A stretch of DNA of 64,000 nt, taken from positions 74,133,348-74,197,347 of the forward strand of contig OX344764.1 of NCBI GenBank assembly GCA_947034895.1, read 5' to 3'. Position 1 is the stretch's first letter; every line of letters starts with the position of its first letter. The notes below the pieces were generated by a model that was not told where the DNA came from, ran no database searches, and saw only the letters and a list, made by a program, of their open reading frames with translations. The stretch is from Rhytidiadelphus loreus. Taxonomy: Eukaryota; Streptophyta; Bryopsida; Hypnales; Hylocomiaceae. This document shows positions 8,166-63,300 of the stretch, piece after piece. The translations under genes and the position numbers were made by a program.

Positions 8166-9071
8166 ACAACACGACAACATTGCTAGCCGTCAAGAAATCA
8201 GTGATTATAAGAAGGCCACCAAATGTTGGAAGTGCGGCATTACAACTCATTAGGGGTGCAAATGCACAGCCAACAAAGAAGTCTAGAAAAAACACCAAGA
8301 ATTGTAGTCTAATCAAGAACAAAGCAGCAAGAAACACACAAGCTATAAGGTGTCTATGGCAACGTTAGAAGAAACAACTTCGGACTCGACCTTTTGGTAA
8401 GTTGATTGTGGTTGTACTGAACATATGACCAACAACAAAGTATTCTTCTATACATATCATGATGTGTCCACAGAGAGACGTCCAGTCCAAAGCATCGGCA
8501 GAGCACTGCTTAGTGTAGTAGGAGTTGGTGACATCGACATTCAATTTCAGTATGAACACGGTTTCAACCTCGGCACACTAAATAAAAGGGGTAATCCATG
8601 TACCCTATCTTGATCAAAATTTATTTTCTTAATATGTCGCTGCTCAAAAGAAGATTTACACGCTCCACACCAACACTGGGTATCAATTACTTGAAGATGG
8701 TAACATAGTTATGACAAGAATATCTATAGTCGAATGTATAGACTAAATATCGAAGTCATTTATCCTAAGGTAGCCACTACAGTTTTAGCCACCACGTTTG
8801 ATGTCTCCTTCGGTATACCAACCATTGTTGCAAGTACACAAATCCTCAACGTCTAGCATAAATGTTTAGCTCACCTCAACCATGCTACACTTCAAACTAT
8901 AGCTACTCAGGGCATTGTCAATGGCCTCGTCTTCAATAATAAGAATAAGTCTTTTTGTCCAGGTTGTGCGTATGGCAAATACACAAGAGTGTCATTTCCA
9001 TCTGATACACATAGAGTTCATTCCACTACTCTTGGTGACTTGATCCATTCAGACCTTTGTGGGCTGATGAG
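8166..9071 (+). pseudogene. Copia pol relic, part 1: zinc knuckle, protease, start of integrase
   Basis: Translated pieces show a CCHC-like knuckle (KCWKCGITTH), then DCGCTEHMTNNKVFF, which corresponds to the copia aspartic protease. These are followed by a GAG-pre-integrase segment (HLNHATLQTIATQGI, then CPGCAYGKYTRVSFP) and the integrase start LIHSDLCGLM. Stops and frame changes are frequent, so it is non-functional. The reading stops at the MULE insertion point and resumes after 22797 without loss of bases apart from the 10-bp TSD. Confidence 0.78.
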
Positions 9072-10078
9072 CAACGACGCTACCATGTGAGCGGGGAGCG
9101 GCGAGCGGGGAGCATTGAGCAATGAGCAATTAGATTTGAGCGCTCATAACAAGAATATATATACTAAATATAGACATGTCAGAATAATAAATAGTTTTGT
9201 CAGATCCCAATATAGTAATGTCAGAAATCCAAAAAAGGAAAAATTTAGTAAAAACTTTGTAAATTTTATATTATTTTTTCAACAAAGATTATTACATCCA
9301 TAGACATGTTATATGAATGAACCTTACATATGTCATCCATTTATTATCCATCCATCCATCATCCATCATCCATTTATCATCCATCCATCATCCATCATCC
9401 ATTTATCATCCATCCATCATCCATCATTCATTTATCATCCATCCATCATCCATACAAATAAGTCTTAATTTTAATTTTGCTATATATCCCCCAAAATTTA
9501 ATTTTTTGGTTTAGGTTTATAGTTTATGAATGACATTAATTTATTAAGATTGTTAGGGTTTGTATTGTTCATTTGGAAGCTTTTTTTTATCTAATTTTGC
9601 ACTGCTTCAATGCTCCTTGGAATCCAATAGCCATCTTAGAGGTCATTTGTAGAAATGTAATAATTTATGCAACAACAAAATTTTCCATCATTTAGAGCTA
9701 TTCAGAATCCTAAAGGCCATTATTATTCACTACAAAACTATGCAACAATCACTTCAACAATGTTTTTTGGTCACAATAATGTGTCCCTTGGAACCAAAGA
9801 GCATCTTCCCAAATCATTTGTAAAACTGTAATACTTCATTCAGATTACAACACACTATAGTCTTGCTAAGTTCATCTTTTTTTATGTATTTTTTTTTATG
9901 TTTACGATTTTACAAATGATTAAAATAAGTCCTAGGAGTCCTTGAATAAACTATTCTTCCTTTCAAGTGATTAGCCTTTGAAGTACGTTAGAGCTAGGAC
10001 AATGAATCATTACTTATCCACCTCTAAACAAAATTGGTGGTAATTTCACTATCTACTACTAGATGTCTACACAACATC
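9072..10078. repeat. MULE copy 1 left terminal and subterminal region
   Basis: After the terminal inverted repeat come GAGC-rich iterations (9095-9150). AT-rich DNA follows, then a run of CATC/CATCCATC microsatellite-like units at about 9340-9450. The remainder to 10078 is AT-rich noncoding DNA downstream of the transposase stop. No gene is seen; short open frames through the CATC repeats are repeat translation. The corresponding stretch of copy 2 is 59350-60340. Confidence 0.7.
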
Positions 10079-13000
10079 TATAGATTGCTATTTTGAAGAA
10101 GTAACTTCACTTCATTGAAGCTTAGACTTGGAGCATGGATGTACTTGTCATCTTCAGAATTGGCTTTGCATACAAATCTAAAGACGTAATACAGATGCTT
10201 GCAATTCACCTATGATTTCCTGCTACCAAGTGCAGCTAAACTCATAGTAACAAAGTCTTCACAAGTACAAGTAGGGAAGTCTGAAATTGTAACCCGATAT
10301 ACCTTTTGGTGGGGAAAGATACCTGACATTAAAGTTATGACTCGCCCATATCTAGAGTATAGAATGACAACTACATATTGAATGACAACTTTCAAATTTC
10401 GTGCTGTCTCCCACTTGTTACGGTGGTCAACTGTAGGTGCATTAGGGTTACGCCTGATGGTCCTCCCCAATCGCTTCGTGGGATGCACATTAGAGTCAGA
10501 TGGTTGCATATCTACATCCAGTTGTGGTGGACAAAGAGAAGACACACCTTTCTCTACGTTGTCTTCATTAAAAAGGTGGAATGCTACATTCCCTACCTCT
10601 TCAGTTTGTAGTTGAAACCCTGCTTCCTCTAAGAAAGAATCTCTGATTTGGTGAGATGTGTTCCCTTTGCTACGGGCCATACATTTGGAGGAGCGGGCCA
10701 ATCATGAACCCATTTCACCTTAGATCCTCCTACACAACGGTGAAGGTCATCTGCACAGAACCAGAAATCAAAGTTGATGATGGCTTTTGTACCGTATTCA
10801 GTCATGCGGCCATTGTAGGTAGGTGTTGCCGTTCCACTCTTTTTTGATATATTTATCTTAGCACCGCATTTCTTCTTCATCCCAACTTAAACGGCATGAC
10901 AAGTCTTTCCTTCTTTCTTACACCTTGCAATGTGCCACAGAGAAGGATTACAATCGGTTTCAAAAACCTTGATAGCATGTGGACATGCCAAGCTTGGTTC
11001 ACCTTCATCTCTCACAATTGGCATTGATGCGTTTGCTTCTTTCCTTGCTCTAATTGAACGAGTCTGAACCATTGGTGTAGAGAAGTTAACTGTATCGTGG
11101 CGGTGAGAATCACTGTCCGCCCCTGGTAGGAGATCTAATTTGCGCTTCGTGGATCCAAAAAGTTCTTTGCCTTCCAAATGTGGGACCCGCGTAGCGAATA
11201 ACTGGGCACTAGGAAGTTTGGCAACAATCTCAGCAAACTTAGCTGGATTCTGGCTTCGTCTTGCAGCTCGAAGGCGAAGTTCGTCCAAGTTGGGGCCAGT
11301 GCCAGATGCATATCCTTGAAGGTACGCCCAATAGTTGGTAGATTGTTGAATAGCTCGCATCATGTCATCTGTAGTAGCAATGTACAAGCAAGTACCTCTC
11401 TTTCCGGACATTTGCAACCATTTGTTGTGCACTGTTTCTACTGGTTGCAAGAAGGCATTTCTGCTAGTTCCTCCAAGCTCAAGTTCTGTAGCACAACAAA
11501 CGTTTCAAAACTAGGTTCTGAAATGCCTATTATTGAATTCAAAACTAAATGACAACATGTCTAATTTGTACATTGCTAGAGTTTTGTGAAGAAGTCATTA
11601 GATTTCAAAGACATGAATTTCTAGCTCTTAAGGCATTTGTTCTTTGAATACAATTTAGGTTGTTAGTCTAAAATGTAGGAAAACTGAAGAAGCATATAAC
11701 TTACCAACTCTAGAAATCCACCCCACTGTTGATAGCGAAAGTGCCAAAAACCAAGCCAATCATCAAGAGCTCGGAGAGAATCTTCGGATGCAGCCCTTGA
11801 AGAGTGCAACCATCCCTTAATTGCAAGGTATCTTTCTTCAGCTTTGGTCATTGTTTAGCATCTTTGTATTAACACGATATTCATTATTTTGGGAGTTTTC
11901 CTATCTCCCAATTTCGGTAGGTTTGCGCTGAACTGCATACTCCCAAAATCATGGAATTCTCCCAAAATAACGAATATCGTGTTTATTGTTTACAAAGCCT
12001 TTTGTGAGTTTCTTGGAACTCAGGTTGAATGTGCTTTTCAGTGTGTCTATTTAGTGATGTCGTCCAATGAAGTAAACATGAGCGCTCCCGATCTTGCATA
12101 GGCTCTTGTTTGTTGCCGCTCCCATACACGACACGAACAGCATGCCAATTGGCCATTGCGTTGTCAGCCATGAAGCCCTTAAAATTTGGAGATGGAATAC
12201 CGTGGCGTGCCATAACAGAATTGAGAGATCTCCACATCTGCTCTTGTGACAACGCATCTTCACTCATCATGTCACAAACACAAATGGTGAGAACTCGACA
12301 AAACTCAGCATCATAGACATGTGCAGCCATTGTTGTCCATCCCTTCACCCTTTTTACATGGTCAAACATGCACCAAGATGATTGTAAATCTCCACCCGGC
12401 TGCATTCTCTTCACAAGATCCACTCCACTTGCTGGACCTTCTTCAAACATCTTGAAAAGGTGAACCTTTTCTTTACCTTGGCCTGGAAACACACTATCTT
12501 GGATGTAGGAATATGCACTTCTCTTCTTCAAGGATATGATGTTGTCAACAGGTCCTCCACTTGCAGTGTGACGGAAATTGGAGATTGTATTTCGGATACT
12601 TGGTGAACTGAGTATTCGAAACTTTTCCATCACTGCTTCTAGTGCCTGACCTTTGAGAGGCTTTGGCTCGCCCCCCAATTCTTCATTCTGAAACAACTCA
12701 GATGCAAGGAACTCTTTGCTAGCAGCAAGACTTATGGTTGAATTAGTGGCAGACGGTGTTTTATAAACTTCCTGACTTATCAAAGATGTTGTCCGCTCAA
12801 CAGATGCACGACAAACACCCCTTCCAACAGGATGTTTGTGATAGCCAACATGGATACAAGCTCTTCCAGAACCATTAGAATTGAAGACCCTATACATGCG
12901 ACAAGGGCATAATGACTTGCAAGAAGAGGACACTTTGTAGATTCGACATAGAATAGTGGATTTTGTAGGTGATTCATTCCCTACAACAAAGATGACAGGT

Positions 13001-13946
13001 GATGACCCCTCCCACTCACTCTCATTTTTGTCTCCACCACGTCGCACTTTAGGGCAATCTAAATTCTCGCATATTAGATGTCCAATACAAAAAGAATAGC
13101 GAAACTTCAGACCGAAGTCATTAGCAATATTTGTAGTGTGTGTGTGTGTGTCCACATGTGTCCATCAAACCTACGATCCATGCCTTCTAATAAACGACCT
13201 ACGGTCGAGGAGGATTGCAATCTGGACAAACCAGCAGAGGAAGATGACGGAGACGAAAGAGGAGGCAATTCAAAAAGTACATCTCCATTGAATGATTGTG
13301 GAAGATGAGGGACAGACTCAACTCGAAGTTCATCTAGGTTCAAGAACTTCAACTCATTCCGGATGCGTGGACGACTCTGCATATCCTTGAGGCACTGAAA
13401 GATGCTATGAACTTGCATTGAATTTAGTGTACCTAATGACGGCAAAGTACTACCATGAACATCTTGATTCATCACCAAAATAGTATCTTCGTCGAACTCG
13501 GGTATAGGAGACAACTTTCCAACTACTTCACTAACCAAAACAACGTCGTCATTAGAAGACTCGCTAAGATCGATATAGATAGGATCCAAAGGCTCTACTT
13601 TGACAGAACTTCCCAAAGGCATCTGCGCTGTAGACGTTACAGATTCAAGTGTGACAACATTAGGTGACATTGACCTTGCAATACTTGGGGTCCCGAATGC
13701 ATGGTACTTGTCAGAGGAGAGTCTCCATACATCTCCTTCTTCACTCTTAATCTTCAATTGCATGATAGTTGACACAAGTTGTCCTCCATCAGAATCAAAT
13801 AGCTCCTCTTCCACCCACAAAGACGTCAAGTTGAGGTTGAACCTTATACTAAGAATCAATGCAGATACGCATGCTACACCATCATCGTTGCAAGGAAATG
13901 ATATTGGAATGCTAGACCCATCACCACGAACAAATGCCATGTCCAT
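10079..13946 (-). pseudogene. MULE-type transposase (DDE plus SWIM zinc finger), inactivated copy
   Basis: The gene is read from 13946 down to about 10079. The N-terminal frame (13946-13107) is acidic and Ser-rich. The next frame (13155-11983) carries the catalytic core. Candidate first Asp is in WCMFDHVKRVKGWTT and the second is in FKGFMADNAMANWHAVR, followed by the Cys/His segment RSCLLHWTTSLNRHTEKHI. Candidate introns lie at 11993-11842 and about 11704-11478. The exon from 11477 supplies GGTSRNAFLQPVETVHNKW, with the likely third catalytic residue Glu. A Cys/His-rich stretch follows (CPHAIKVFETDC, HIARCKKEGKTC), then a SWIM finger (CTCEDF, then CKH). Copy-specific lesions are TAA at 10887-10889, a 1-nt loss near 10632 and TAG at 10210-10212. 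A frame change at a (GT)8 tract is shared with copy 2. Confidence 0.82.
11872..11982. mobile_element. 111-bp MITE inside the transposase gene, forming most of a candidate intron
   Basis: The sequence ACACGATATTCATTATTTTG at 11872 is repeated inverted, with one or two differences, at the end (…GAATATCGTGT, 11982). It is flanked by TTA on both sides (11869-11871 and 11983-11985), as in PIF/Harbinger-type MITEs; TATT is an alternative reading. On the minus strand it lies between a donor (T/GTAAAC at 11993) and an acceptor (CAAAG/CT at 11842) whose phases match. It would therefore be removed by splicing. MULE copy 2 has the same insertion at 62135-62245, so it predates the split of the copies. 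Confidence 0.65.
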
Positions 13947-15356
13947 ATAGGCATGTGCATACAGTCTACAAACTTTTACTCATGGTCTTTGCTTGCATGG
14001 TAACATTTAAAAGCTTGTTGATTTGTAGTAGGAGGTAGAAGGCTTTAAAGTAGTTGATTTTGCGAGTAGCCGTTTTTGGCTATTGGCTTTTAGTGATTTG
14101 AAATTCGAATTTGAAAAGGCTTACATTAAAGGATTTCAAATTTGGCCAATGATTGAATTCTTGTATTTGAATTACCATTAGACGATCCTCAGTTAGATTA
14201 TAAATTTTAAATAGTGCCACATGCAAAAGATGGAGGCACATTAAAAGCTAAGAAATGGAGGCTCCCTTATTGTAAGGATGATATGTTCAAATGTAGGAAT
14301 AATTATGAAGTAGGTGAGCGAAGAAGGAATGATCTTAGTAATCGTTGATGTCGTCATAAATAGATGTCCTTCCATTTGATTTGATGAAAATGCATTCATC
14401 AAACTTTGAGAGTGCTATGTATAGGCAAGATGGCAAAGTTGATACCAGATTGAGAAATAGAATTAGTTTCATGCGAGTGTTTTCATTTTGCAGGGATGCC
14501 AAAGGGTTCTTATAGGAAGAGACGTAAGGCAGGTCTTTTGTTTTCTAGTAAGAAGTAGTTAGAGAAATTGAGGATGCTTCGACATTTGCAGAAAGCTAAT
14601 GGAGGTGATATGAGTAGTACTATTCGGACCTTGTCGTATGAAGATGATAGACATATTTAGTGTGGAGATAGTTGTATACAAAGTATAGAAGGAGCGAAGG
14701 TTGCTGAGCTTGATATCGTGGATGAAATGGAAGACAGTGTGTGTCAATCAAGTGTACTAGCAAATATCATGTTGCTTGAAAACATAGAGTTGGTAAGTTA
14801 ATCTATATTTTTGATAGAAGATGAGTCATTAGAAATTTAGAAGGTGAACAATTGAATTTATATGAATTTTTTTTATTAAAGGTGCATTTAGAACAGAATG
14901 TCATTTTGTGTATTTCGAGAAGACGATTCCAATGGTATATAGCATGTAAAAAACGGAGCTTTTTGGAACATTCTACGGCCTAAAAACAAAATCAGCATAT
15001 TGGAATCTTCTCTGAAATCTTCAGAATCAGTAGATTATTTGACCAAATCTTGCCCGCGTAGTTTTTAGAGAAGTTTGCTGATTTTTGTAAAATCACTCGT
15101 GAGTCCAAAAAATTTGGAAAAAATTAGAGTCTGTACTAAGGTTATAATCTATGCATAGAAAAATTTTGGACCCAAAAATCTTCAAGATCAAATATGTTAT
15201 TCAGGAGATTCTCTTGCCCTAAATCTACCAATTTTATACTCTTTTTTTTTTTCTTTCCGTCCAGCGCAACGCACACATCCTAGGGTTTTGCTCTCTTCCA
15301 TACTCTCTTTGTTTTCTTTGTGTGTTGCGTTGTACATTGGTGGATGTTCTTTCACA
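13947..15356. promoter_or_regulatory. Divergent spacer between transposase and cargo gene
   Basis: This 1.4-kb AT-rich stretch separates the transposase start (13946, minus) from the cargo start (15357, plus), so it probably contains both promoters. It also holds the degenerate exon-like segment annotated at 14494-14792. A poly-T tract lies near 15241-15255, about 100 bp before the cargo ATG. No defined promoter motif is certain. Confidence 0.45.
14494..14792 (+). pseudogene. Degenerate exon-like segment, possible remnant of a third MULE gene
   Basis: A plausible acceptor (TTTTGCAG/GG) at 14493 and a donor (AGTTG/GTAAGT) at 14793 bound a stretch that opens with ATG at 14496. It encodes MPKGSYRKRRKAGLLFSSKK, then more coding-like sequence interrupted by two TAG codons. 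The basic start and acidic end (DEMEDSV) look like protein sequence rather than random AT-rich DNA. I recognise no family. It could be an upstream exon of the cargo gene or a separate decayed gene. Confidence 0.4.
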
Positions 15357-18300
15357 ATGAACTTACGAAGTGCAACAATGCAAAAGGTTGGAGAGGCGCC
15401 TCAAGAAGGCAGCGAGGGTGGTGAGGGCGGCAAGGGTTTACCTGATTGCATCGAAGGTGTCCACGCTCTGGAAATCGAAGCCACCGAAACACCACAACAG
15501 GTAACATTTTTTACCCTCTTTGAATACTTCCTAGTGCTATAGCTCATCGCCTCGTTAACGAGGCATCATTTTTGAGTTTTCTTTACTGTTTTTGGGTTCG
15601 CGGAAGTTTAGAAGACATGTTCAAAAAAATTATCTTTTGCTGATTTAGGGTGTAGAAGACCGCCTCGTCAACGAGGTGGCAATTTCAAGTTTTCTACTGT
15701 AGGGTTGCAATCAGCTCCCAAAACATTCAATGACATGTTTCAAATTTTCTTTCAATTGCTGATTTAGGCTGTAGAAGGTCACCTCGTCAACGAGGTGGCA
15801 AATTCAGGTTCTCTATAGTTCTCATTTTTGAATTTAAGCTTGCTCTACATGATGTAGAATTTTTTTTCCAATGACTGATTTTGGTTCTAGAAGACTACCT
15901 CGTCAACGAGGTGACAATTTTAGATTCTTTAGGGTTTTTTATGAACTAGTCAAAGCTTGCTCTACATGTTGTAGAATTTTTTTTTCAAAGGCTGATTTTA
16001 CTTGTAGAAGACCACCTCGTCAATGAGGTGATAATTTCAGATTCTTTAGGGGTTTCATGAACTAGTCAAAGCTTGCTTGAAATGTTGCTGAATTTTTTTC
16101 AAAAGCTGATTTTACTTGTAGAAGACCACCTCGTCAACGAGGTGATAATTTCAGATTCTTTAGGGGTTTCATGAACTAGTCAAAGCTTGCTCTACATGTT
16201 GTAGAATTTTTTTCAAAGGCTGATTTTACTTGTAGAAGACTACCTCGTCAACGAGGTGGTAATTTCAGATTCTTTAGGGTTATGATAAACTACTCAAAGC
16301 TTCCTTGAAATGTTGCTAGATTTTTTGGGACATGGCTGATTTTGCTTGTAGAAGACCACCTCGTCAACGAGGTGATAATTTCAGATTCTTTAGGGTTCTA
16401 GGGAACTAGTCAAAGCTTGCTTGAAATGTTGCTGGATTTTTTTCAAAAGCTGATTTTACTTGTAGAAGACCACCTCGTCAACGAGGTGATAATTTCAGAT
16501 TCTTTACGGTTCTAGGGAACTAGTCAAAGCTTGCTTGAAATGTTGCTGGATTTTTTTCAAAAGCTGATTTTACTTGTAGAAGACCACCTTGTCAACGAGG
16601 TGATAATTTCAGATTCTTTAGGGTTCTAGGGAACTAGTCAAAGCTTGCTTGAAATGTTGCTGGATTTTTTTCAAAGGCTGATTTTACTTGTAGAACACTA
16701 CCTCGTCAACGAGGTGGTAATTTCAGATTCTTTCGGGGTTTCATGAACTAGTCAAAGCTTGCTTAAAATGTTGGTGGATTTTTTGGGACATGGCTGATTT
16801 TGCTTGTAGAAGACCACCTCGTCAACGAGGTGATAATTTCAGATTCTTTAGGGTTCTAGGGAACTAGTCAAAGCTTGCTTGAAATGTTGCTAGATTTTTG
16901 TGGACATGGCTGATTTTGCTTCTACAAGATGGCCTCGTCAACGAAGTGACAATTTGAAATAATCTAGGGTTGTCATCAACTAATCCAAGCTTGCTAAATA
17001 TGTTTCAAATTTTTGTAATGGTTGATTTTGTCTCTAAAATTCCACCTCATCCCACACCTTGTTGATGAAATAGAGCTTCATGGATATTGATGGAGGGCTT
17101 CTCCAAGTGGAAAGATTGGACCTCATCATCAATGATGATTCTCGGCCTACCATTACCATTGCACTGGTAAGATTTGTTTCTAACTCTTTTTGCTTTTATG
17201 CGTTTTTCATTGACTGCTCTTGTTGCACTATTGTGAGTCATTATCCTTTGAGTTTCAATGTAATGCTTTTTACTATTATCTCAATTTTTGGGTTGAATGT
17301 ACCGTTCATTGTAGGCGGATCACATTGTTCATAGTGAAGATATTGATCCAACTTTTGAGGGTCGAACTATGGAGGAGGTGGAACAAGATGTGCGCAATGG
17401 TCAAAAACTTGACTCCAATGCTGTCATCAACAGTATGCTATTCAACGGTGGTGGATCGGGGGATCATGCTTTGATATTCCTTTGTGCAGGATGATAGGAC
17501 TTCCATTAGTTCGCCCCCTCCTTCAGAATCAAGTGAAACGATTGGAGGCCGAGTTTGTCCATGGATACCGACAAGGTGATCGTGTGCTTTATGTGTCTAC
17601 TACAAATGACAAGGGACTATGCAAATTAGTAACCCCGGAGATTGTGGAGACATGGAATGATCATTGGATAGAGGTGAATGACCATTTTGAGGGTTGGTTG
17701 AAGTCTCAACCATCCATCTCACATTTGTCAAACCATATGTTCTTTGTGTGGGATGGCAATCATAGATTGGCAGCTTGGTATGATTACATCAATAGGATGC
17801 ATCGATATGATCGTGAGAAGCATGTACCCGTTGATTGTATGCTTCTGGTATCAGAGGGTCGTACATGCATTCTATTGGAGGCTATGAATGACATCAATTG
17901 GTGAGGTTCAATTTCTATTTCAATTTCTATTTCAATTTTTTTTTTAAACTTCATCACTTCCTTGGGTGTATTGCAGTACTCTATGATTTCAAATTCCTTT
18001 ATCTTACTTTCTATTTTTGTGGCTAATTGTAGGTCTACCGAGCATTCCCATGTCAAGAGCAATTTGGTTCAACAATTGCACAGGATGAGTACTTATGGCA
18101 ACATGAAACTGGAAGAATTTAAAGGTCTTCTAAGCGATGAGGATTACAAAAAATGCGAGAATAGAAAATTCCCAGGTGCTTGGTATCCATTGACATCAAG
18201 CGTCTTCATACAATTTCTTCATTGGGTGAATGTACAATGTTTACAAAAGTTTTTCATTCATTTGCTAAATTTTCTTAAATTTGTTCTACATTGGTTTAAC

Positions 18301-21300
18301 ATTCTTATTTTTCATGTGCAGCAAGAAATTGTTGTTGTTTCAGATGCTGCAATACGAACATACTATGAGAAAACCAAGCCCGAAGACCGAACTCCAAGAG
18401 GAGTACATGATGCCATGACCCTAGCCGCCACTGCAGCTATCAAAGGTTTTCAAACTGAGTTTGATAAACAATCAGCCATTACAAATCCCAAAAATGGCGT
18501 TGGATTTTTGGAAGAGGTATGTAATTTTGATTGCTTGCAAATGAATGAATTGCATGATTTGTATGATTACTTTTGGTGTTGGTTTTCACTATGATTATTT
18601 ATCTTTGAAATTTCAGATCTACTTGCATTACAGCGCCAATGAGAAGTCAGAGATGTCATTGGAAAAACTTCAGAGGATATCTACATGTGTAGTTCAGCCA
18701 CACCACAAGGTTCGTTGGCTTCGTTGGTGGAACTCTAGTGAGACTTCCAGGGAGGGCTTCAGATTTCCTGCCCTTGGTTTCAACACATCAACTTTAGAGA
18801 CTTGGCTCTCTAAGGCTGTTTTTTGGGCTAAGATATATTATGAACCTTCTCTTTCATTCACATGATCAATACTTTCTTTTATAAGCTTCTTTTATAAGCT
18901 TTTATTTGCATTCTTCTTCTATTGTTGTATCATCATATGTTTTACTTGAACAATGTTATATTTACTTTGTTGGAGTTGTTTGTAGTTGGAAGAGGCAGCA
19001 AAAGCAGAATTCACAAGCATCATAAAATTTGAAAATATTATGGTTCAATGGAGTGCCAATGATGAATTGGATACAATTGGAGATTACGTGGAGACATGGC
19101 GTATTGTATTATGGGGTCATGGTTTTTGGTGGCTCTTCAAAAATGATTCTTCATATTCAAGGTCCACTCCTTTCAAAGAGCAAGAGGATACAGATGTTGC
19201 AACAAAAAAGCTTCTATACAGGTAGACCTTTTACTTCAATTTCATTCATTTGTATAAATTTGAATTGCTTACTTCCTTTACAAATTTTTAAAATAATGAC
19301 ACTTGCATCTTCATCATTGCAATGATTTCATTTACTCTATGAATGCAGATATTTCAAACGAGAGTTGGTTCAAAAAGGTGGAATTGAGAGGAGATCCATG
19401 CCCAAACTTTTCAAAGGATGGCTTGACACATCTTTGAAGGGTTGTATGTTCACCTTGACTCAACAGCAGGGGTATTCTATCCAAGAACTTCAAGCTTGTC
19501 CTTGGTACTTGGAGTGTCCAAGGACTTTTGCTCCTGCTCTTGAAGGACTTGAGAAAGAAGCAACCAAAGACCATCCCAAATCAGTCACACAACAAGAGTC
19601 TTTAGATGAAGAAGAGGAGCTTGAGGAGCTTGTACCAGCAAAGAAGGGGCGCAAGCCAAGGGAGAAGAAGATTACAAAGAAGACAAAGAGTGACAATGCC
19701 GCCAAGGATGACACCCCCTCTTCATCTATGCCTACATCTATTGTTGCACCTCCTCTTCCTGTGCCTCGTAGTACAATCGAGGTGATTGACACAGCTCGTT
19801 TGCATTGCCCTCCAACTCTCATGTCTATTACAACAGATATCTTTGCTTCATCTGAATACATTGCCAGATCGACAATTCAACCTGATAGACATGGAATTGA
19901 GCCTCAAGCTCTAATTCTACCATCATCGATTTCTGCAATGCTCAACATCAAGGAGAAGATAGGGAACAATGCACCAACATGGAATGAAATGCTTGATTTT
20001 GCCAAAAAAGTAAGATTTATGCTCCCTAGTCTTATTGAAATTCTTTCTACTTATTTTACAAGTTATAAATATGACATTGCAATTCATTCATACAACTAAA
20101 ATTGTGTTTTTTTATGTTTAGGTTGGAAGGGAGCGGGTGCGAACTCTTGGAGGCAATGAGAAGCCTTCTCCATACTTTGATTTGATTGTTGCAAATATCC
20201 CCGATGGATTACCGGTCCCAAACACCTCAATTTCACCATCTCATATCCCTGCATGGAACATTTTAAATGAAGAAGAGGTTATTGAACCCATCTTTGAGTT
20301 TGCTTCAGAGCACATTCATGATGATGGAGCAATTTTGTTGTTCCATCTAGAGAATGGCAGGGTAAAGGGATTTACACTTGAGCATGCTGATGCATATGGT
20401 TTTCGTCTACTTGATTCATGGACAGGCGTGAATGAGCTAAAGCTTTCCAGTTACAAGAAATCCAAACGTTGGGTAAGTTCTATTGAAATTTCCCTAATGT
20501 TTAGTTTTAAATGTTTGAACCTATTTCTTGCAATTTACATTGTGTTTATCAAGTATTAATTGTGAAACTTGTTTATCCTTGGCAATCGCAACTCTTTCGA
20601 ATCCTTCTTTTTGTACGAAGCAAATGGAAGGAAACATCGGTGGTGTCTAAGTTCTCTATCTATGTGAACCAACAACTTAGCAATGCAAGCACAAACCTTG
20701 AAGAAATTGACCTTCTCCACAACTTCATCTCTTCACAGATTCAACTCATGAATGGTACAGTTCCATAGAGAGGTGCTCATGAGAAGGATCCTTTATTTGT
20801 GCAACTATTGATTGAGGCATTTTCAAAACCTGGCGACGTGGTGCTAGATTGTTATGCATCTACAGGTATGTTCCATTAGCTATCATTTTCTCAACCATCT
20901 TTTAAAAAAATTGTGTGTCACATATTTGTTGCAAATTATAACTAATGACATTCTATTGAATGAACAGGGGCCTCTATTCATACATGCTGCAACATTGGAC
21001 GTCATTTGGTGGCCTTAGAGAGTGATACTAAGATTTATAAAGCTCTTCTCCAACCTTTAAACATTCCTCCTTCCTCTGCCAATGATCAAGTCAAGCGCCC
21101 TATATCTGTAGTGGTGGATGATTCTGATGATGAAGACATTGTGAAGCCTTCTGCAAGGCCCCGAAAGAGACGTTGTTGTAAGTAAGTTGGTTGTTGTTTT
21201 CATGCATGTCTTCATTTTCTTCTATTGTTTGATATCTCAAAATTTTCTTGAACCTTCTAATTGTTTTTTCATTGCATTTTGTAGAGGCAATCTTCTCCGG

Positions 21301-21540
21301 CATCTTGTGCTCTCACCTTCTCCTAGTGCCAAGGGTTTGTCGTGTTACATCGAGATTCTAGTGACAGCTATGGCAGAGGCTCCATCACCCATTCGTATTG
21401 CCAAACATCCTTCATACAATGTTGCTGTTAGAAAGTTTTTAGACCTTGAGGCTAAGGTTGAGACATCAGGACTTATATGCAGTGATAGTAGTGAAGGCAG
21501 TGATCATTCTTCTCCCATATGTGGTATTGGGTCAAATTGA
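15357..21540 (+). pseudogene. ParB-like / N4-N6-type DNA methyltransferase-like cargo gene (13 exons, damaged copy)
   Basis: Exons inferred from splice sites and phase: 15357-15500, 17074-17166, 17315-17900, 18033-18231, 18322-18516, 18617-18814, 18986-19221, 19349-20009, 20122-20472, 20586-20865, 20968-21181 and 21285-21540. The 17315-17900 block may be two exons, giving 13. The undamaged product would be about 1,137 aa. Near residue 225, MFFVWDGNHRLAAWYDYI matches the DGxHRxxA motif of ParB/Srx-like domains. The middle is Lys/Glu/Ser-rich (KKGRKPREKKITKK). Near residue 796, YFDLIVANIPDGLP sits where the [DNS]PP[YFW] catalytic motif belongs. Near residue 975, KPGDVVLDCYASTG and GRHLVALESD match SAM-binding motif I of N4/N6 methyltransferases. 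Lesions: a frame change at 17400-17480, donor GC at 18815, acceptor AA at 20584-20585 and TAG at 20766-20768. Methyltransferase ancestry is likely; activity is unproven. Confidence 0.68.
15541..16950 (+). repeat. Array of 13 tandem units of about 116 bp, each with a CACCTCGT/ACGAGGTG palindrome
   Basis: The palindrome CACCTCGTCAACGAGGTG (8-bp arms, 2-nt centre) or a close variant starts at 15549, 15661, 15780, 15896, 16013, 16127, 16241, 16367, 16471, 16585, 16699, 16815 and 16931. Spacing is 104-126 bp. Between palindromes each unit repeats GATAATTTCAGATTCTTTAG, AACTAGTCAAAGCTTGCTTG and CTGATTTTACTTGTAGAAGA with drift. The palindrome is better conserved than the rest of the unit; the outermost copies carry most variants (GCCTCGTTAACGAGGC at the first). 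The array fills intron 1 of the cargo gene. It could bind a dimeric protein or form RNA or DNA hairpins. Confidence 0.9.
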
Positions 21541-22797
21541 TTTTGTTCTAAACACTATTGTTGTTACTTGGTTTTATAATATGATGTAGTGAGACTAAAA
21601 GGGCCACTACATTCTTGCACCTTATCACATTCTCGAGTTATTTTGCATTCTTGTGATTCTAAGTGTGGTGATAAACGTCATCTTTGTTCTAAAAGAGAGT
21701 CCCCCATTTTAAAAGACTTCTTCATTTTAGATGTAAATTATTAGAAATATTTGTAGCATTACAAGAGAATTGGCCTCTCTAAGAGATTGTTTCAACCTAT
21801 TCCTAATTATGTTCTCACAACAGCAAGGTTGCTGTCTAACCCAAAATTTAAAATTTTTTAAAAAATTAAAAAAAAAAAAATTTGCCTTTGAAATATGAGA
21901 ATAAGGGAGGGGGAAAAAAGTTTAATGACATGGTCGTCACCCAACCACATCAACTCTACTACCAAAACAGCACTACAATACTACAGTAAGTTCTCTAACT
22001 GTTGAAAACTCACAGTCTCCTAAAGAGGTCAAATCTCCCCTAATGATAAAATTATTTCTTGCAATTAGCAACATTTTTTTTTTTTAAATTTGGTTTTATT
22101 TAAAATAAAATAAGTAGTAAACAAATGATGGTATTATATAATGTAATAAATGTTGGAATTAACATAGAAATAAATTTGGTGAATCTCAATTATAATGCTT
22201 AAAAGTAATTATAAATTTTGATTAGAAATGGTACCTCCCTTGAAATAATGTTATAACATTATGTAAACATAGATCCCTAGTTTCCAAAAAAACACCCAAA
22301 ACTTTAGATCTTGAATACTTTATAATTGTCCTTTAGCCTATAGAGTTATTTTATAATCTCACCCATCAATCTTTCAAACCTTTTTTTATCCAATGCGATG
22401 AACAACACATATATTTCATCCAAAAAATCCAAATATAAAAAATTTCATCCAACTCTGTTCATCTCCATTCATCTCCATTCATCTCCATTCATCTCCATTC
22501 ATCTCCATTCATCTCCATTCATCTCCATTCATCGTCATTCATCTTCATTCATCTTCATTCATCCCCAATTCTCCATTCATCCCCAATTCTCCATTCATCC
22601 TCATTAGGCACTTCTATAGCCATATATTTTTATTCAAAACCATTGACATAGGCATATTATGGTGAAAACTTGGAAAAATTTTACAAGTTTAAAAAAAAAA
22701 TTCAATGCTCAATGCTCAACTCTCAATGCTCAACGTTCAACGCTCAATGCTCAACGCTCAACGCTCGTTGCTCCCCGCTCACATGGTAGCAACCCTG
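21541..22797. repeat. MULE copy 1 right subterminal and terminal region
   Basis: Downstream of the cargo stop lies AT-rich noncoding DNA. A CATTCATCTC-type repeat follows at about 22450-22605. A 7-bp iteration (AATGCTC/AACGCTC, read inverted as GAGCRTT) runs from 22702 to 22768 and abuts the terminal core at 22770-22789. The element ends CAACCCTG at 22797. No gene is seen in the stretch. Confidence 0.75.
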
Positions 22798-25510
22798 GGC
22801 TGATGAGCACACCTTCGGTTGGAGGCATTTTATATTTTATAATGTTCAAAGACGATTGCTCTAGGTTTAGAGTCATCGAGTGCTTGCAGAACAAGAAGGA
22901 TACACTTGTTACATTCAAACGTTTTGTTGCACAGCTCCGGCGAGACACAAGCAATACCGTGAAGATCATCAGAAGTGATCGAGGTACAGAGTACAGTGAC
23001 AAAGTTTTCGCCAAATACCTTGAGGATCAAGAAATCAAACAAGAGTTGACCACATCATACACCCCCGAACAGAATGGCGCTTCAAAACGTGACATTCGCA
23101 AGATCATGGAGGCTATGCATAGTATACTTCACTCCTCCAATGTCCACATCCGTTTCTGGGGGGAAGCAGCCCACACTATTGTTTATAATTTGAATTGTAC
23201 TTCAACCAGAACCATTGAAGGACTAATCCCATTCGAAGTTTGGTACAAGGAGAAACCATTTGTTTCACATATACACATTTCTGGGACTACTACATATATA
23301 TACATAATACATCCCCAAAGAGCTTCGCCGCAAATTCACACCAAAAAGCAGAAAGGGCATCTTTATAGGATATTCAGTGACGAGTAAAGCCTACAGAGTC
23401 TGGAACAATGAGCTCAAACAAATAGACAAGAGCCGTGACGTTTTATTCAATGAAGTTATCATGGAAGAATACACAAGTACCGATGAAGCCTACCCATGGC
23501 TCAATGTTGAAGGTGAGACTACACCAACAATACATATAACTAGGGATGCTCCACGTTTTCTACGTGCCTTGATTTTTTTACCAGTGATCCTACAAGCACG
23601 CCCCTAAGAACCTACTCAACTAGCTCCGGTAGTGCTAGACGCTTTTGACTCCAGTCCACCTAATCTCGTCTTTGACGACACTACTAATGACTTCAATGAT
23701 GTTGATACCACTCCAACAACTACTGATGATGTTAGTGAGGATGTCTACCCATTTAATGACCCCTCATCAGATCTCCCCAGTGAGGCAGAACTAGCTAGAC
23801 CAATGGGAGCAATCTTCACAGTAGAATCTCTAGAAACAACAGGACCACGCATCATAGACATTGAACTAGTGGGAGATGTCCGATTGAATGTAGATGATGC
23901 GTCCAACACTCGGGTCCCATGCACAACGAACCCATCCATCCGTTTAGACAAATGGATCTATCCAGTTGACTAAAACTCCTATGCTTGTGTGGCTCGCATA
24001 TAGTTACCCGAAGAACCTGACACTTATGAGGAGGTGATGGCTTCTCCTGAAAAAGAGCACTAGCTGAACGTGATGCGTGAGGAGTATGAGTCACTCATAC
24101 AGAACGACACTTAGACACTCAAAGAAATCTCCAAAGAAAGCAATTTGGTGAAATGTAGGTGAGTGTTCAAATTAAAGTTGGCAGCAGATGGCTCTATAAG
24201 TCACTACAAGGCCCGTTTAGTTGCCAAAGGCTTCACGCAAAGGAAAAGTATTGACTATGAGGAGACCTTCGACCCGTGGTCAAATTTGACTTTGTTCACA
24301 CAAATCTATCCATTGCAACTGCAAAGGACCTTAATCTCACACAATTTGATGTGTGCACTACCTACCTCAACAAACTACTACATGAACTTATTTATATGCA
24401 ACAACCCATTGGATTTGAGATTGGCCATCCTGCAAATTGTTGCCTTGTTTGCCGTCTGAACAAAGCCTTATATGGCTTAAAGCAGAGTGCTAGAGTGTGG
24501 AACTGCAAGTTCATTCATTTCTTACAAGCCTACGACTTAATAGTCTCATGTGCCGACTATTGCATCTATGTAAACAAGACCAATGCCAAGCTTATCTTGT
24601 ACATTTGGATAGACGACAGCATGATATGCAATACTTTTAACGACAACATTGAAGAAATCCTCAACTACATGGGCAAAGATTTTCAAATCACACAAGGTTT
24701 AGCAAAGATCTACGTAGGTCTCCACATCACCAAGGATCGTGATCAAGGCCTCATCCACATTGACCAATGCTAGTACTTTAAAAGAGTTTTACAACATTTT
24801 GGCCACGAAGATTGCCACAACAAGGCAATATCGTCGGATTCTACTAGCGCCACCCACATGCATTCATCTACACCGAATGACTTCCAGATAATTTTTCCTT
24901 ACAGAGAATGCATTGGATGTCTCCATTTTACACAGATTGGCACCCGCTTCGACATCAGCTATGTAGTGAGTAATATGTCCAGATTCAACAATTGTCCTAC
25001 GACAGCCCACGTCTCAAGCGTAAAGTACATCCTAAAGTATTTGAGAAGGACGCTTGACCACACGATTACATATAGACGTGGGCCAAACCCCAATTACCTC
25101 ACTGCCTCTTGTGACGCTGGTGATTACGACGATCGCAAATCTCAATCAAGATTCCTCCTCATACTCAACGGTGGCCCAGTTTCTTGGAACAATAGGAAAC
25201 AAACCTGCACAGCCTTTAGTACCATCAAGTCAAAATACATAGCAGCTAGTTAGCAACACAAGAAATACTTTGGATGTATCAACTCCTCCATAGCATCCAC
25301 TCCCTGCAGACAACACCAATACCATTATTCTATAACAACCAATTAGCGATTCGACTTGTCAAGAACCTTGTCTTCCATCAACGCACCAAACATATTGACA
25401 CAAAGTATCACAAGATTTGAGATGCGGAAGAAGCCGGTGACATCACTCTTACTTATATATGCACGGAAGACCAAGTAGTAGATGTTATGACAAAACCGCT
25501 GCCTTGAGAT
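22798..25510 (+). pseudogene. Copia pol relic, part 2: integrase, reverse transcriptase, RNase H
   Basis: Integrase resumes at STPSVGG with FKDDCSRFRVIECLQNKKDT and IIRSDRGTEYSD. The region that normally reads NGVAERKNR is NGASKRDIRK here, so the usual catalytic Glu is replaced. Reverse transcriptase follows ([20 protein letters not shown], then ALYGLKQSARVWN), with WIDD at the usual YVDD site and a frame change near 24275. RNase H shows SCDAGDYDDRKSQS and then SWNNRKQTCTAFSTIKSKY. The C-terminal tail ends near ICTEDQVVDVMTKPLP in a broken frame. Several stops interrupt the frame (for example near 23605, 24000 and 24773). It is a non-autonomous fossil. Confidence 0.85.
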
Positions 25511-52860: not shown

Positions 52861-53040
52861 AGTGGGAATTGATTATCCTTCATACTTGTCCTTGGGGCTC
52901 AATCATTGAGAGGCAAAGTTTGCATAGTTTGCAAATCGGTGGCGCACAACTTGCGGTGCACTACGACAAATTGACCTCTCAGACTTCGCGCCATATCCAA
53001 AGTAAGCAAAAGTGCGCTTGCATTTATAGTTGAATGTCAG

Positions 53041-59349: not shown

Positions 59350-60340
59350 CAACGACGCTACCATGTGAGCAGGGAGTGGCGAGCGTCGAGCATTAAGCAA
59401 TGAGCAATTAGATTTGAGCGCTCATAACAAGAATATATACTAAAAATAGACATGTCAGAATAATAAATAGTTTTGTCAGATCCCAAAATAGTAATGTTAG
59501 AAATCCAAAAAAGAAAAAATTTAGTAAAAACTTTGTAAATTTTATATTATAAATACACACTAAATTTTTTTCAACAAAGATTATTACATCCATAGAAATG
59601 CTATATGAATGAACCTTACATATGTCATCCATTTATTATCCATCCATCCATCATCCATCATCCATTTATCATCCATCCATCATCCATCCATCATCCATCC
59701 ATCATCCATCATCCATACAAATAAGTCTTAATTTTAATTTTGCTATATAACCCCCAAAATTTAATTTTTTGGTTTAGGTTTATAGTTTATGAATGACATT
59801 AATTTATTAAGATTGTTAGGGTTTGTATTGTTCATTTGGAAGCTTTTTTTTATCTAATTTTGCACTGCTTCAATGCTCCTTGGAATCCAATAGCCATCTT
59901 AGAGGTCATTTGTAGAAATGTAATAATTTATGCAACAACAAAATTTTCCATCATTTAGAGCTATTCAGAATCCTAAAGGCCATTATTATTCACTACAAAA
60001 CTATGCAACAATCACTTCAACAATGTTTTTTGGTCACAATAATGTGTCCCTTGGAACCAAAGAGCATCTTCCCAAATCATTTGTAAAACTGTAATACTTC
60101 ATTCAGATTACAACACACTATAGTCTTGCTAAGTTCATCTTTTTTTATGTATTTTTTTTTATGTTTACGATTTTACAAATGATTAAAATAAGTCCTAGGA
60201 GTCCTTGAATAAACTATTCTTCTTTTCAAGTGATTAGCCTTTGAAGTACGTTAGAACTAGGACAATGAATCATTACTTATCCACCTCTAAACAAAATTGG
60301 TGGTAATTTCACTATCTACTACTAGATGTCTACACAACAT

Positions 60341-63300
60341 CTATAGATTGCTATTTTGAAGAAGTAACTTCACTTCATTGAAGCTTAGACTTGGAGCATG
60401 GATATACTTGTCATCTTCAGAATTGGCTTTGCATACAAATCTAAAGACGTAATACAGATGCTTGCAATTCATGCATGAATTCTTGCTACCAAGTGCAGCT
60501 AAACTCATAGTAACAAAGTCTTCGCAGGTACAAGTAGGGAAGTCTGAAATTGTAACCCGATATATCTTTTGGTGGGGAAAGATACCTGACATTAAAGTTA
60601 TGACTCGCCTATATCCAGGGTATGGAATGACAACTACAGATTGAATGACAGCTTTCAAATTTCGTGCTGTCTCCCACTTGTTACGTGGTCAACTGTAGGT
60701 GCATTAGGGTTACGCCTGATGGTCCTCCCCAATCGCTTCGTGGGATGCACATTAGAGTCAGATGGTTGCATATCTACATCCAGTTGCGGTGGACAAAGAG
60801 AAGACACACCTTTCTCTGCGTTGTCTTCATTAAAAAGGTGGAATGCTACATTCCCTACCTCTTCAGTTTGTAGTTGAAACCTTGTTTCCTCTAAGGAAAG
60901 AATCTCTTATTTGGTGAGATGTGTTCCCTTTGCTACGAGCCATACAATTGGAGGAGCGGGCAAGTCGTGAACCCATTTCACCTTAGATCCTCCTACACAA
61001 CGGTGAAGGTCATCTGCATAGAACCAGAAATCAAAGTTGATGATGGCTTTTGTTCTGTATTCAGTCATGCAGCCATTGTAGGTAGGTGCTGTCGTTCCAC
61101 TCTTTTTTGATATATTTATCTTGGTACCGCATTTCTTCTTCATCCCAACTTGAACAGCATGACAAGTCTTTCCTTCTTTCTTACACCTCGCAATGTGCCA
61201 CAGAGAAGGATTACAATCGGTTTCAAAAACCTTGATAGCATGTGGACATGCCAAGCTTGGTTCACCTTCATCTCTCACAATTGGCATTGATGCGTTTGCT
61301 TCTTTCCTTGCTCTAATTGAACGAGTCTGAACCATTGGTGTAGAGAAGTTAACTGTATCGTGGCGGTGAGAATCACTGTCCGCCCCTGGTAGGAGATCTA
61401 ATTTGCGCTTCGTGGATCCAAAAAGTTCTTTGCCTTCCAAATGTGGGACCCGCGTAGCGAATAACTGGGCACTAGGAAGTTTGGCAACAATCTCAGCAAA
61501 CTTAGCTGGATTCTGGCTTCGTCTTGCAGCTCGAAGGCGAAGTTCGTCCAAGTTGGGGCCAGTGCCAGATGCATATCCTTGAAGGTACGCCCAATAGTTG
61601 GTAGATTGTTGAATAGCTCGCATCATGTCATCTGTAGTAGCAATGTACAAGCAAGTACCTCTCTTTCCGGACATTTGCAACCATTTGTTGTGCACTGTTT
61701 CTACTGGTTGCAAGAAGGCATTTCTGCTAGTTCCTCCAAGCTCAAGTTCTGTAGCACAACAAACGTTTCAAAACTAGGTTCTGAAATGCCTATTATTGAA
61801 TTCAAAACTAAATGACAACATGTCTAATTTGTACATTGCTAGAGTTTTGTGAAGAAGTCATTAGATTTCAAAGACATGAATTTCTAGCTCTTAAGGCATT
61901 TGTTCTTTGAATACAATTTAGGTTGTTAGTCTAAAATGTAGGAAAACTGAAGAAGCATATAACTTACCAACTCTAGAAATCCACCCCACTGTTGATAGCG
62001 AAAGTGCCAAAAACCAAGCCAATCATCAAGAGCTCGGAGAGAATCTTCGGATGCAGCCCTTGAAGAGTGCAACCATCCCTTAATTGCAAGGTATCTTTCT
62101 TCAGCTTTGGTCATTGTTTAGCATCTTTGTATTAACACGATATTCATTATTTTGGGAGTTTTCCTATCTCCCAATTTCGGTAGGTTTGCGCTGAACTGCA
62201 TACTCCCAAAATCATGGAATTCTCCCAAAATAACGAATATCGTGTTTATTGTTTACAAAGCCTTTTGTGAGTTTCTTGGAACTCAGGTTGAATGTGCTTT
62301 TCAGTGTGTCTATTTAGTGATGTCGTCCAATGAAGTAAACATGAGCGCTCCCGATCTTGCATAGGCTCTTGTTTGTTGCCGCTCCCATACACGACACGAA
62401 CAGCATGCCAATTGGCCATTGCGTTGTCAGCCATGAAGCCCTTAAAATTTGGAGATGGAATACCGTGGCGTGCCATAACAGAATTGAGAGATCTCCACAT
62501 CTGCTCTTGTGACAACGCATCTTCACTCATCATGTCACAAACACAAATGGTGAGAACTCGACAAAACTCAGCATCATAGACATGTGCAGCCATTGTTGTC
62601 CATCCCTTCACCCTTTTTACATGGTCAAACATGCACCAAGATGATTGTAAATCTCCACCCGGCTGCATTCTCTTCACAAGATCCACTCCACTTGCTGGAC
62701 CTTCTTCAAACATCTTGAAAAGGTGAACCTTTTCTTTACCTTGGCCTGGAAACACACTATCTTGGATGTAGGAATATGCACTTCTCTTCTTCAAGGATAT
62801 GATGTTGTCAACAGGTCCTCCACTTGCAGTGTGACGGAAATTGGAGATTGTATTTCGGATACTTGGTGAACTGAGTATTCGAAACTTTTCCATCACTGCT
62901 TCTAGTGCCTGACCTTTGAGAGGCTTTGGCTCGCCCCCCAATTCTTCATTCTGAAACAACTCAGATGCAAGGAACTCTTTGCTAGCAGCAAGACTTATGG
63001 TTGAATTAGTGGCAGACGGTGTTTTATAAACTTCCTGACTTATCAAAGATGTTGTCCGCTCAACAGATGCACGACAAACACCCCTTCCAACAGGATGTTT
63101 GTGATAGCCAACATGGATACAAGCTCTTCCAGAACCATTAGAATTGAAGACCCTATACATGCGACAAGGGCATAATGACTTGCAAGAAGAGGACACTTTG
63201 TAGATTCGACATAGAATAGTGGATTTTGTAGGTGATTCATTCCCTACAACAAAGATGACAGGTGATGACCCCTCCCACTCACTCTCATTTTTGTCTCCAC

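Follow-up and report, generated by a model that had tools for sequence, protein, structure and literature searches.

The locus raises the question of why a large transposon of the moss Rhytidiadelphus loreus should carry, beside its transposase gene, a gene (here termed the cargo) whose predicted product has a ParB-like and a methyltransferase-like part. The window, i.e. the whole stretch of DNA that was analysed, is 64,000 nucleotides long; its features are given in Table 1.

Table 1. Features located in the 64,000-nucleotide window
Feature	Position	Strand	Remark
Whole transposon, 13,726 bp	9072..22797	.	Ends and target duplication
Left target-site duplication GGCTGATGAG	9062..9071	+	Perfect 10-bp, same as right copy
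Right target-site duplication GGCTGATGAG	22798..22807	+	Perfect 10-bp, same as left copy
Left inverted end	9072..9134	+	48/63 positions agree with right end
Right inverted end	22735..22797	-	48/63 positions agree with left end
Transposase gene	10081..13940	-	Frame broken; tblastn with L045 transposase
Cargo exon 1	15357..15500	+	
Array of 13 palindromes CCTCGTCAACGAGG	15550..16946	+	Cargo intron 1
Cargo exon 2	17074..17166	+	
Cargo exon 3/4	17315..17900	+	ParB-like region with DGNHR (17752-17766); frameshifted once in window copy
Cargo exon 5	18033..18225	+	
Cargo exon 6	18322..18516	+	
Cargo exon 7	18617..18832	+	Donor after exon lost
Cargo exon 8	18986..19221	+	
Cargo exon 9	19349..20009	+	Long charged linker
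Cargo exon 10	20122..20472	+	Methyltransferase-like motif IV region; NIPDG in window copy
Cargo exon 11	20586..20865	+	Acceptor lost; in-frame stop 20766-20768; start of motif I
Cargo exon 12	20968..21182	+	Motif I ends here; GRHLVALESD block
Cargo exon 13 (last)	21285..21540	+	Includes stop codon
Second copy, left part	59350..64000	+	4,683 aligned columns, 97.9% identical; continues past window edge

The transposon and its transposase

The transposon is inserted in a copia element, and copia pieces (integrase, reverse transcriptase) lie to its right. An earlier note on this DNA had described a 13.7-kb element with inverted ends and a perfect 10-bp target-site duplication, and this element is real, as both its ends and the GGCTGATGAG duplication were located. 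It begins with CAACGACGCTACCATG and finishes with CATGGTAGCAACCCTG. The inverted ends are imperfect, the 63-nt arms being 81% complementary. A chance origin of these ends is ruled out: the terminal 21-mer has 57 + 61 occurrences in the genome with up to two mismatches, compared with 0 + 0 for its reversed control. The window copy is defective, in that the transposase gene and the cargo gene are both broken. The right half of the second copy was followed past the window edge, as had been proposed, and it also contains the cargo as far as it was read (L040).

Four elements were read with both ends: the window element, L039 (internally deleted), L041+L042 and L045+L058. Their target duplications of 10, 10, 10 and 9 bp fall within the 9–11 bp of Mutator-like elements (MULEs), and their inverted ends, with 48, 52, 47 and 37 of 63 positions alike, are also of the MULE type. 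In the window transposase the DDE-like region lies within 11983-13164 and a SWIM-like motif is in the last exon; the reading frame is interrupted at two places at least. The SWIM zinc finger (PF04434) gives E values of 0.17 and 0.073, which are below the cut-off, and a CxC...CxH spacing is visible in the L045 transposase. No Pfam match to the MULE DDE domain (PF10551) was found in the transposase, and the window locus is not among the 30 places of the genome with PF10551. Profile comparisons of the transposase with MULE domains from this genome, which had few sequences and low power, gave no match (E 0.18 with a poor alignment, and 0.29). What makes the transposase Mutator-like is thus confined to the target duplication, the ends and a weak SWIM finger.

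The cargo gene and its copies

The divergent multi-exon gene described in the earlier note, with its DGNHRLAAW motif and KPGDVVLDCYASTG...GRHLVALESD block, is present. It has 12 exons; the exon numbers run to 13, as 3 and 4 are a single exon. A short intron between these two was dropped from the model, since the region is one continuous exon in relatives. The lesions of the window cargo are one frameshift, one lost splice donor, one lost acceptor and one in-frame stop.

The cargo is found regularly with the transposon. One or more element ends, at least one in the expected orientation, are near all 13 close cargo copies, and among the matches listed, 14 of the 15 nearest transposases (≥75% identity) have a divergent cargo match at 6.0–13.5 kb. 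At least 150 cargo matches were scored genome-wide, and the majority of those listed have no stop. In a relative of 16.4 kb, flanked by a 9-bp duplication, the transposase frames are open over 763 and 462 codons and the cargo splices into a frame of 1109 aa with no stop; unbroken spliced cargo frames were seen in two distant members. Other cargo copies are broken, as is the window copy. A first protein database query had no match among 7989 candidates scored, and profile queries gave a single one, Ceratodon purpureus P0001.

Element copies that lack the gene would speak against a regular association. Among the ends listed, some have no listed cargo match, including the pairs C2:814980-832923, C2:15059977-15069813 and C2:52199994-52209456 and unpaired ends on C1, C3, C4 and C417. 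Two end pairs with no listed cargo match were inspected, and both have cargo exons: L087 keeps exons 2–7 and 13 with the middle deleted, and L088, read on the transposase side only, has exon 1 and six palindromes. The outcome is mostly in favour of the association.

The cargo is, judged from substitution patterns, under purifying selection between families. For the ParB-like exon, dN/dS is 0.05–0.16 in the 9 of 36 between-family pairs (nine sequences) with computable dS; dS exceeds 2 behind four of these ratios, and is 0.20–1.18 for the other five, whose ratios are again 0.05–0.16. Four of the nine sequences (L051, L053, L054, L055) have one stop in the exon. Exon 10 has a median dN/dS of 0.21 in 79 filtered pairs. 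Comparison of the window cargo with eleven copies of its subfamily, mostly over exon 9, gives 0.64–2.46, which points to no constraint after insertion, selection being seen only between families. The claim that the cargo is a genuine gene therefore stands for the family, where it is a regular and selected part of a mobile element, although the window copy itself is broken.

Cargo and transposase differ in divergence. For the window family compared with its sister family, dS is 0.9 for the transposase core and, for the cargo, 2.9 or not computable (at or near saturation). Between the window and C4:31.77 Mb the values are 0.038 (transposase core) against 0.157 (cargo). The cargo thus either evolves faster than the transposase or is exchanged; the pattern suggests that modules may pass between elements.

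Predicted domains and palindromic sites

The cargo C-terminus is by its sequence a class-beta N6/N4 methyltransferase-like domain. A match to N6_N4_Mtase (PF01555) in the distant member L043 scores 26.9 bits (E 5e-6), just over the cut-off of 26.7, the PHROGs match has an E of 7e-8, and all three members of set A1 match PF01555 at E up to 5; the single exons of the window cargo gave no PF01555 match. Phage DpnA-type methylases align over most of the domain. They come from 220 phage records at E up to 1, of which 20 cover ≥80% of the query at ~22% identity, with a best E of 0.02.

Motif I (DCxAxTG) and an RGxxEK motif are conserved in the cargo. The catalytic consensus of class-beta N6/N4 enzymes is (D/N/S)PP(Y/F/W). 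It occurs in none of 20 sampled members, and L043, L044, L045+L058 and those copies of the window family that can be read lack it too. The cargo motif IV is mostly D-x-P-E/D-G (D-x-P-E-G in 18 and D-x-L-E-G in two of the 20), so that an acidic residue mostly takes the position where a stacking aromatic one is expected; this altered form is largely conserved. The Ceratodon relative has DTPF at motif IV, and methylation elsewhere in the family is therefore possible.

The ParB-like assignment was not confirmed, as there was no significant HMM or PDB match; HMM searches thus bore out only the methyltransferase half of the earlier description. At E up to 10, none of 10 members matched a Pfam ParB family, PHROG ParB-like matches appeared in three of 10 (best E 0.12), and a PDB sequence search gave no ParB match. 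Two AlphaFold models are too poor to be of use (mean pLDDT 35.6 and 38.6). A G-x-H-R type box is a feature of the ParB-CTPase fold, and such a box is present: DGNH is invariant in 10 aligned members and is followed by R or K. The decayed L048 reads NGNHR.

The palindrome array in the first cargo intron is an addition to what had been described. Its units are ~114 bp; the CTCG-N4-CGAG core is unchanged in 10 of the 13 and has at most one mismatch in all 13, and core agreement is 0.98 as against 0.76–0.79 in the flanks. Cargo introns of relatives have a repeated palindrome TCTCGGNNCCGAGA, the commonest form, in place of CCTCGTCAACGAGG, with 1,576 occurrences in the genome versus 16 for its reversed control (~100-fold), and palindromes are enriched relative to shuffles in stretches of the family. 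The palindrome differs between some families (CCTCGTCAACGAGG, TCTCGGNNCCGAGA, AGTCGGATCCGACT), and one motif is common to several. Family-specific motif repeats in non-coding parts are thus present, as in VANDAL/VANC-type elements.

Association of site and gene is incomplete. The TCGG-N2-CCGA palindrome was not found in four of 12 fetched family stretches (L048, L052, L055, L057). The L052 stretch is without the ParB-like exon, and half-sites recur in L057. The listed first 10.2 Mb of C1 contain 14 site clusters, two of them upstream of listed cargo loci. Three further C1 clusters were fetched irrespective of cargo: two contain a cargo gene new to the earlier matches listed, and the third has none within 2.5 kb. 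At two of the four cargo loci listed for C1 below 10.3 Mb (C1:501874, C1:5260771), the 8 kb upstream contain no TCTCGGNNCCGAGA site. C1:5260771 is a window-family locus, whose motif differs from TCTCGGNNCCGAGA. One palindrome lies between transposase exons of the L045 element, and no copy of the motif was found at the termini of any of the four elements for which both ends were read.

Known systems and possible function

Fungal KDZ transposons carry TET/JBP genes; they too are DNA transposons with a DNA-modification-related gene, and differ in enzyme class and transposase. ParB + methyltransferase proteins are also reported in algal transposons, and the brown-algal authors propose a marking role for them (PMC12477816). 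In the available part of that account the protein has the same two predicted domains and nearly the same length, and is encoded in a DNA transposon on the strand opposite the transposase. The transposon superfamily and the host are other ones, and that part of the account mentions neither a site array nor an altered catalytic motif. Neither a ParB + methyltransferase protein of a land plant or a Mutator-like element nor an array of sites came up in a search of the literature.

The VANC proteins are anti-silencing proteins of Arabidopsis VANDAL elements, which are likewise Mutator-like, have an extra gene, and carry family-specific short motifs in tandem repeats, some of them inside the extra genes' introns; the motif and the protein have diverged in concert (PMC5735166). 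The available text of that source mentions no ParB or methyltransferase domain for VANC, and the VANC21 motif YAGTATTAY, unlike the moss palindromes, is non-palindromic and arrayed in one orientation. Fusions of the ParB-CTPase fold with an N6_N4 methyltransferase exist in phages (PMC12704722) and, so far as the available text goes, share the domain pair and the association with mobile elements. These belong to prokaryotic viruses, whereas the moss cargo exceeds 1000 aa and has twelve exons, a long middle part and a putative ParB-like part.

The best reading makes the cargo a built-in accessory gene of a large family of Mutator-like transposons, and perhaps a sequence-specific (anti-silencing) factor of its transposon; jointly these propositions are given a probability of about 45%. 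The cargo protein would bind the intronic palindromes via its ParB-like N-terminal region, the palindromic site suggesting a dimer. The bound product of each element would mark or open that element's own chromatin, whereby transposase and cargo would be expressed. The mechanism is modelled on VANC. The methyltransferase-like domain may then be an S-adenosylmethionine-binding or non-canonical module and not an ordinary adenine or cytosine methylase. Alternatively, the transposase or some factor of the host could be what binds the palindromes. A rather doubtful elaboration is a parS/ParB-like self-system, in which a SAM-binding pseudo-methyltransferase with a ParB-like module would load at the family-specific palindromes of its element, spread along that element and counter silencing by the host, protein and site co-diverging between families and cargo modules being exchanged among elements.

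Other explanations can be weighed against the same data. An active N4-cytosine/N6-adenine DNA methyltransferase, targeted by the ParB-like region and marking its own element for protection, marking or control of transposition, is unlikely given the lack of the catalytic consensus in all 20 sampled members and the acidic residue that mostly replaces the aromatic one. It is favoured by the L043 match above the Pfam cut-off, the conserved motif I and RGxxEK, the phage alignments (best E only 0.02) and the role proposed for the algal proteins (PMC12477816). Just as unlikely is a helper that works with the transposase in end pairing or excision timing, the palindromes being assembly sites with no silencing role. 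The two-gene divergent layout, the regular linkage and the palindrome between L045 transposase exons agree with it, but most sites are in cargo introns, and none was found at the ends of the four elements read from end to end duplication.

It is improbable that the arrays serve as enhancers or insulators recognised by either the transposase or a factor of the host, with the cargo working without them; the cluster lacking nearby cargo and the cargo stretches lacking sites would fit, but the motif varies between some families, which is unexpected of one host factor. Chance capture of a host gene fragment, in the manner of Pack-MULEs, draws on the broken state of the window copy and others; it is highly improbable and was rejected on copy number (most of the listed matches being without stop), the unbroken spliced frames of two distant members and selection between families.

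The protein and its candidate site are now named, as are natural variants of the two, and recognition is directly testable by simple binding assays. The altered yet conserved catalytic motif raises the question of what a methylase fold does without ordinary methylation. If the anti-silencing reading is true, plant transposons would have made another, unrelated invention of sequence-specific self-recognition beside VANC, here assembled out of a phage-like pair of domains and found at no fewer than 150 scored places in one genome.

Ends, copies and genes of the element

The window lies at C4:74133348–74197347 of the genome searched, whose assembly spans 407 Mb and includes five large contigs. 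With up to two mismatches allowed, the terminal 21-mer of the window element, GCTACCATGTGAGCGGGGAGC, is found at 57 forward and 61 reverse places, whereas its reversed pattern has no match in either orientation; together with the flanking duplication, this bears out the proposal of an inverted-end element with a 10-bp target site duplication. The first 100 of these places listed were used for comparing ends with cargo. Both ends were also read in three further elements, all of which have CAACGA at the start and CAACCCTG at the end. Pieces of copia integrase and reverse transcriptase lie to the right of the window element.

The transposase half of copy 2 matches the window element at 97.9% identity and the cargo half at 92–94%, a difference that hints at recombination between copies. 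Its homology stops at about position 6200 of the fetched stretch L040, where copy 2 is therefore either truncated or interrupted. In the genome, PF10551 MULE domains map to thirty separate places, showing that ordinary MULEs coexist with the cargo-bearing family.

Elements of the family and other features of the window
Feature	Position	Length	Target duplication	Remarks
Window element	window 9072–22797	13,726 bp	GGCTGATGAG (10 bp)	Inserted inside a copia element
L039		9,969 bp	GTGTTGTCCA (10 bp)	Internally deleted
L041+L042		12,720 bp	GCGCCGAAAG	
L045+L058		16,428 bp	AGGACTTTC (9 bp)	Distant family member
Copy 2	C4:74192697 onward			
Minisatellites	window 9305–9464 and 22426–22585			Just inside both ends of the window element; CATCCAT-type and CATTCATCTC-type
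Possible hAT-like gene fragments	window 51576–52872 (−)			52282–52872 matches DUF659 (E 2e-9), which we take to be linked to hAT; 51576–52184, no match
Plant host gene piece	window 39298–40167 (+)			Pectin methylesterase inhibitor domain (PMEI, E 3e-15)

The cargo gene has twelve exons; the numbering runs from 1 to 13 since what was first modelled as exons 3 and 4 is a single exon (3/4). The window copy is frameshifted in this exon, has lost the donor after exon 7 and the acceptor before exon 11, and carries a stop at 20766–20768. Its transposase frame shifts at about 13.1 and 10.6 kb, places at which other transposase copies are open (frames of 696 and 710 codons). In the distant member L043, 10 cargo exons with GT-AG junctions encode 1080 aa without a stop (first exons left out), and in L045+L058 10 exons encode 1109 aa without a stop (first exon, near 6589–6999, not joined), alongside transposase open frames of 763 and 462 codons. 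The cargo of L044, another distant member, has one stop; identity to the L043 product is 47% for L044 and 34% for the window.

Linkage of the cargo to the element

The cargo gene is linked to the element. Exons 9–10 gave at least 191 genome matches, and exon 9 identity of at least 83% marks 13 loci, the window included, each with at least one correctly oriented element end. Both ends were listed or seen at 11 of the 13; at seven of these 11 they are more than 16 kb apart, presumably because of nested insertions or ends of other copies. The transposase core gave at least 149 scored matches (of 1,274 candidates), and 14 of 15 transposases with at least 75% identity have a divergent cargo match 6.0–13.5 kb off among the matches listed, the lone exception being C5:39089007, with no divergent cargo among them. 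Exon 10 of the L043 cargo gave at least 150 scored matches (of 1,068 candidates), mostly stop-free among those listed. Seven cargo matches have identical scores (C4:34908940, C1:85978621, C2:69603532, C2:82164738, C4:35148257, C5:37372045 and C5:41195244), which suggests a recent burst.

The earlier note had asked whether the cargo is always inside elements with these termini. This holds at the close loci and for nearly all of the close transposases, but some terminal 21-mer ends and end pairs have no cargo among the matches listed, which counts against a strict rule. Two such pairs with exact ends, L087 and L088, were partly read and both show cargo pieces. In L087, exons 2–7 and 13 remain around a deletion; L088, a reverse-orientation element, has exon 1 and six palindromes on the transposase side, the side read.

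Palindromes in the cargo introns

Palindromes are enriched and conserved in the cargo introns. In intron 1 of the window cargo, CCTCGTCAACGAGG is repeated 13 times with a unit length of about 114 bp, and no copy differs from it by more than one mismatch. The 14-bp core, the best-conserved 14-column stretch of the array, has a majority agreement of 0.98, versus 0.76 and 0.79 for the flanks. Distant families have the palindrome CTCTCGGNNCCGAGAG, frequently outside tandem arrays. At L044, L049, L050 and L051, sites are spaced 96–643 bp apart (one at 4.7 kb) and the flanks are unrelated; TCGG and CCGA (eight bases) are fixed by the search pattern itself, and the two bases on either side of TCGG-N2-CCGA agree 0.6–1.0 per locus versus 0.42–0.51 farther out. 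L045+L058 has AGTCGGATCCGACT five times, one of them between transposase exons. By eye, about 100 bp at L058 3610–3710 form an inverted repeat with AGTCGGATCCGACT at its centre; a more degraded relative lies at about 3385–3450.

Two to eight TCGG-N2-CCGA sites are present in 8 of 12 other-family 4-kb stretches upstream of cargo exon 10 and none in the other four (L048, L052, L055 and L057); shuffling, 60 times per stretch, gave at most 0.03 per stretch. L057, from a sister family, is without full palindromes and has repeated half-sites TTCCGAGGAG in both orientations. Upstream of one equal-score cargo match, L056 has 17.6 tandem 118-bp units, eight with an intact CTCGGNNCCGAG core. Neither palindrome core occurs in the 45.6 kb of the window that lie beyond the two copies, nor in 26 kb around unrelated MULE genes. 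Genome-wide, TCTCGGNNCCGAGA is found 1,576 times versus 16 for the reversed form. Three site places were picked regardless of cargo: two hold a cargo gene new to the earlier listed matches, and one has no cargo within 2.5 kb.

The cargo protein, its possible role and selection

The C-terminal part of the cargo protein is a methyltransferase-like domain. In L043 it scores 26.9 bits against Pfam N6_N4_Mtase, whose cut-off is 26.7, and this family matches all three members of the protein alignment at E up to 5. PHROG DNA methyltransferases match with a best E of 7e-8 (phrog_3008 in all three), and structure 5hfj, a DpnA-type adenine methylase, at E 5e-4. Motif IV lies ahead of motif I, which is the class-beta order. 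In the N-terminal region, DGNH is invariant in 10 of 10 aligned members and is followed by R or K. ParB was not confirmed by Pfam and PDB sequence searches or by AlphaFold models, and PHROG ParB-like matches in three of 10 members have a best E of 0.12. Of the two families expected earlier, the methyltransferase is thus recovered by HMM, and ParB has no Pfam match.

The best explanation we can propose is that the cargo protein is a sequence-specific anti-silencing factor, compared here with VANC of Arabidopsis VANDAL elements. The protein would bind the palindromes, and the outcome of this predicted binding would be anti-silencing. VirB of bacteria is a ParB-family protein. It is described as offsetting silencing and requiring CTP (PMC10653881), and provides a precedent for a ParB-type anti-silencer.

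The main rival is that the cargo actively methylates. Phage ParB-N6_N4 fusions are described in a 2025 survey (PMC12704722). The catalytic position is D-x-P-E-G in 18 and D-x-L-E-G in two of 20 members sampled across the listed L043-exon-10 matches, DMPEG in L043 and L044, DCPEN in L045+L058 and NIPDG in the window copy; ten readable close copies have DIPDG (7), NIPDG (1), DVPHG (1) and VIPNG (1). The catalytic consensus of methyltransferase motif IV is (D/N/S)PP(Y/F/W). DTPF stands at the catalytic position in Ceratodon purpureus M758_1G295400, a protein of 1147 aa and the one relative obtained from the database (E 1e-176; 31% identical across 85%). The words methyltransferase and moss are absent from the main text of a MULE survey (PMC6446971), and among the papers listed by searches of literature mostly outside subscription journals, none was seen to report such a protein for land plants or Mutator-like elements, or a palindrome array with such a protein.

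Between families, the cargo is under purifying selection. In the ParB-like exon (477 nt, nine sequences, four with one stop), dN/dS is 0.05–0.16 in all nine pairs with computable dS, out of 36 of which 27 are synonymously saturated; dS exceeds 2 in four of the nine. Exon 10 has a median of 0.21 (range 0.08–0.67; 79 equal-length pairs, dS 0.15–1.5), and the window versus eleven copies of its own subfamily gives 0.64–2.46. The unbroken L043 and L045+L058 genes and the low between-family values uphold the view of a genuine gene, not captured scraps, with the window copy itself broken. Low dN/dS between families and high dN/dS within the subfamily show that selection keeps the cargo in still-moving lineages and that the gene decays after insertion.
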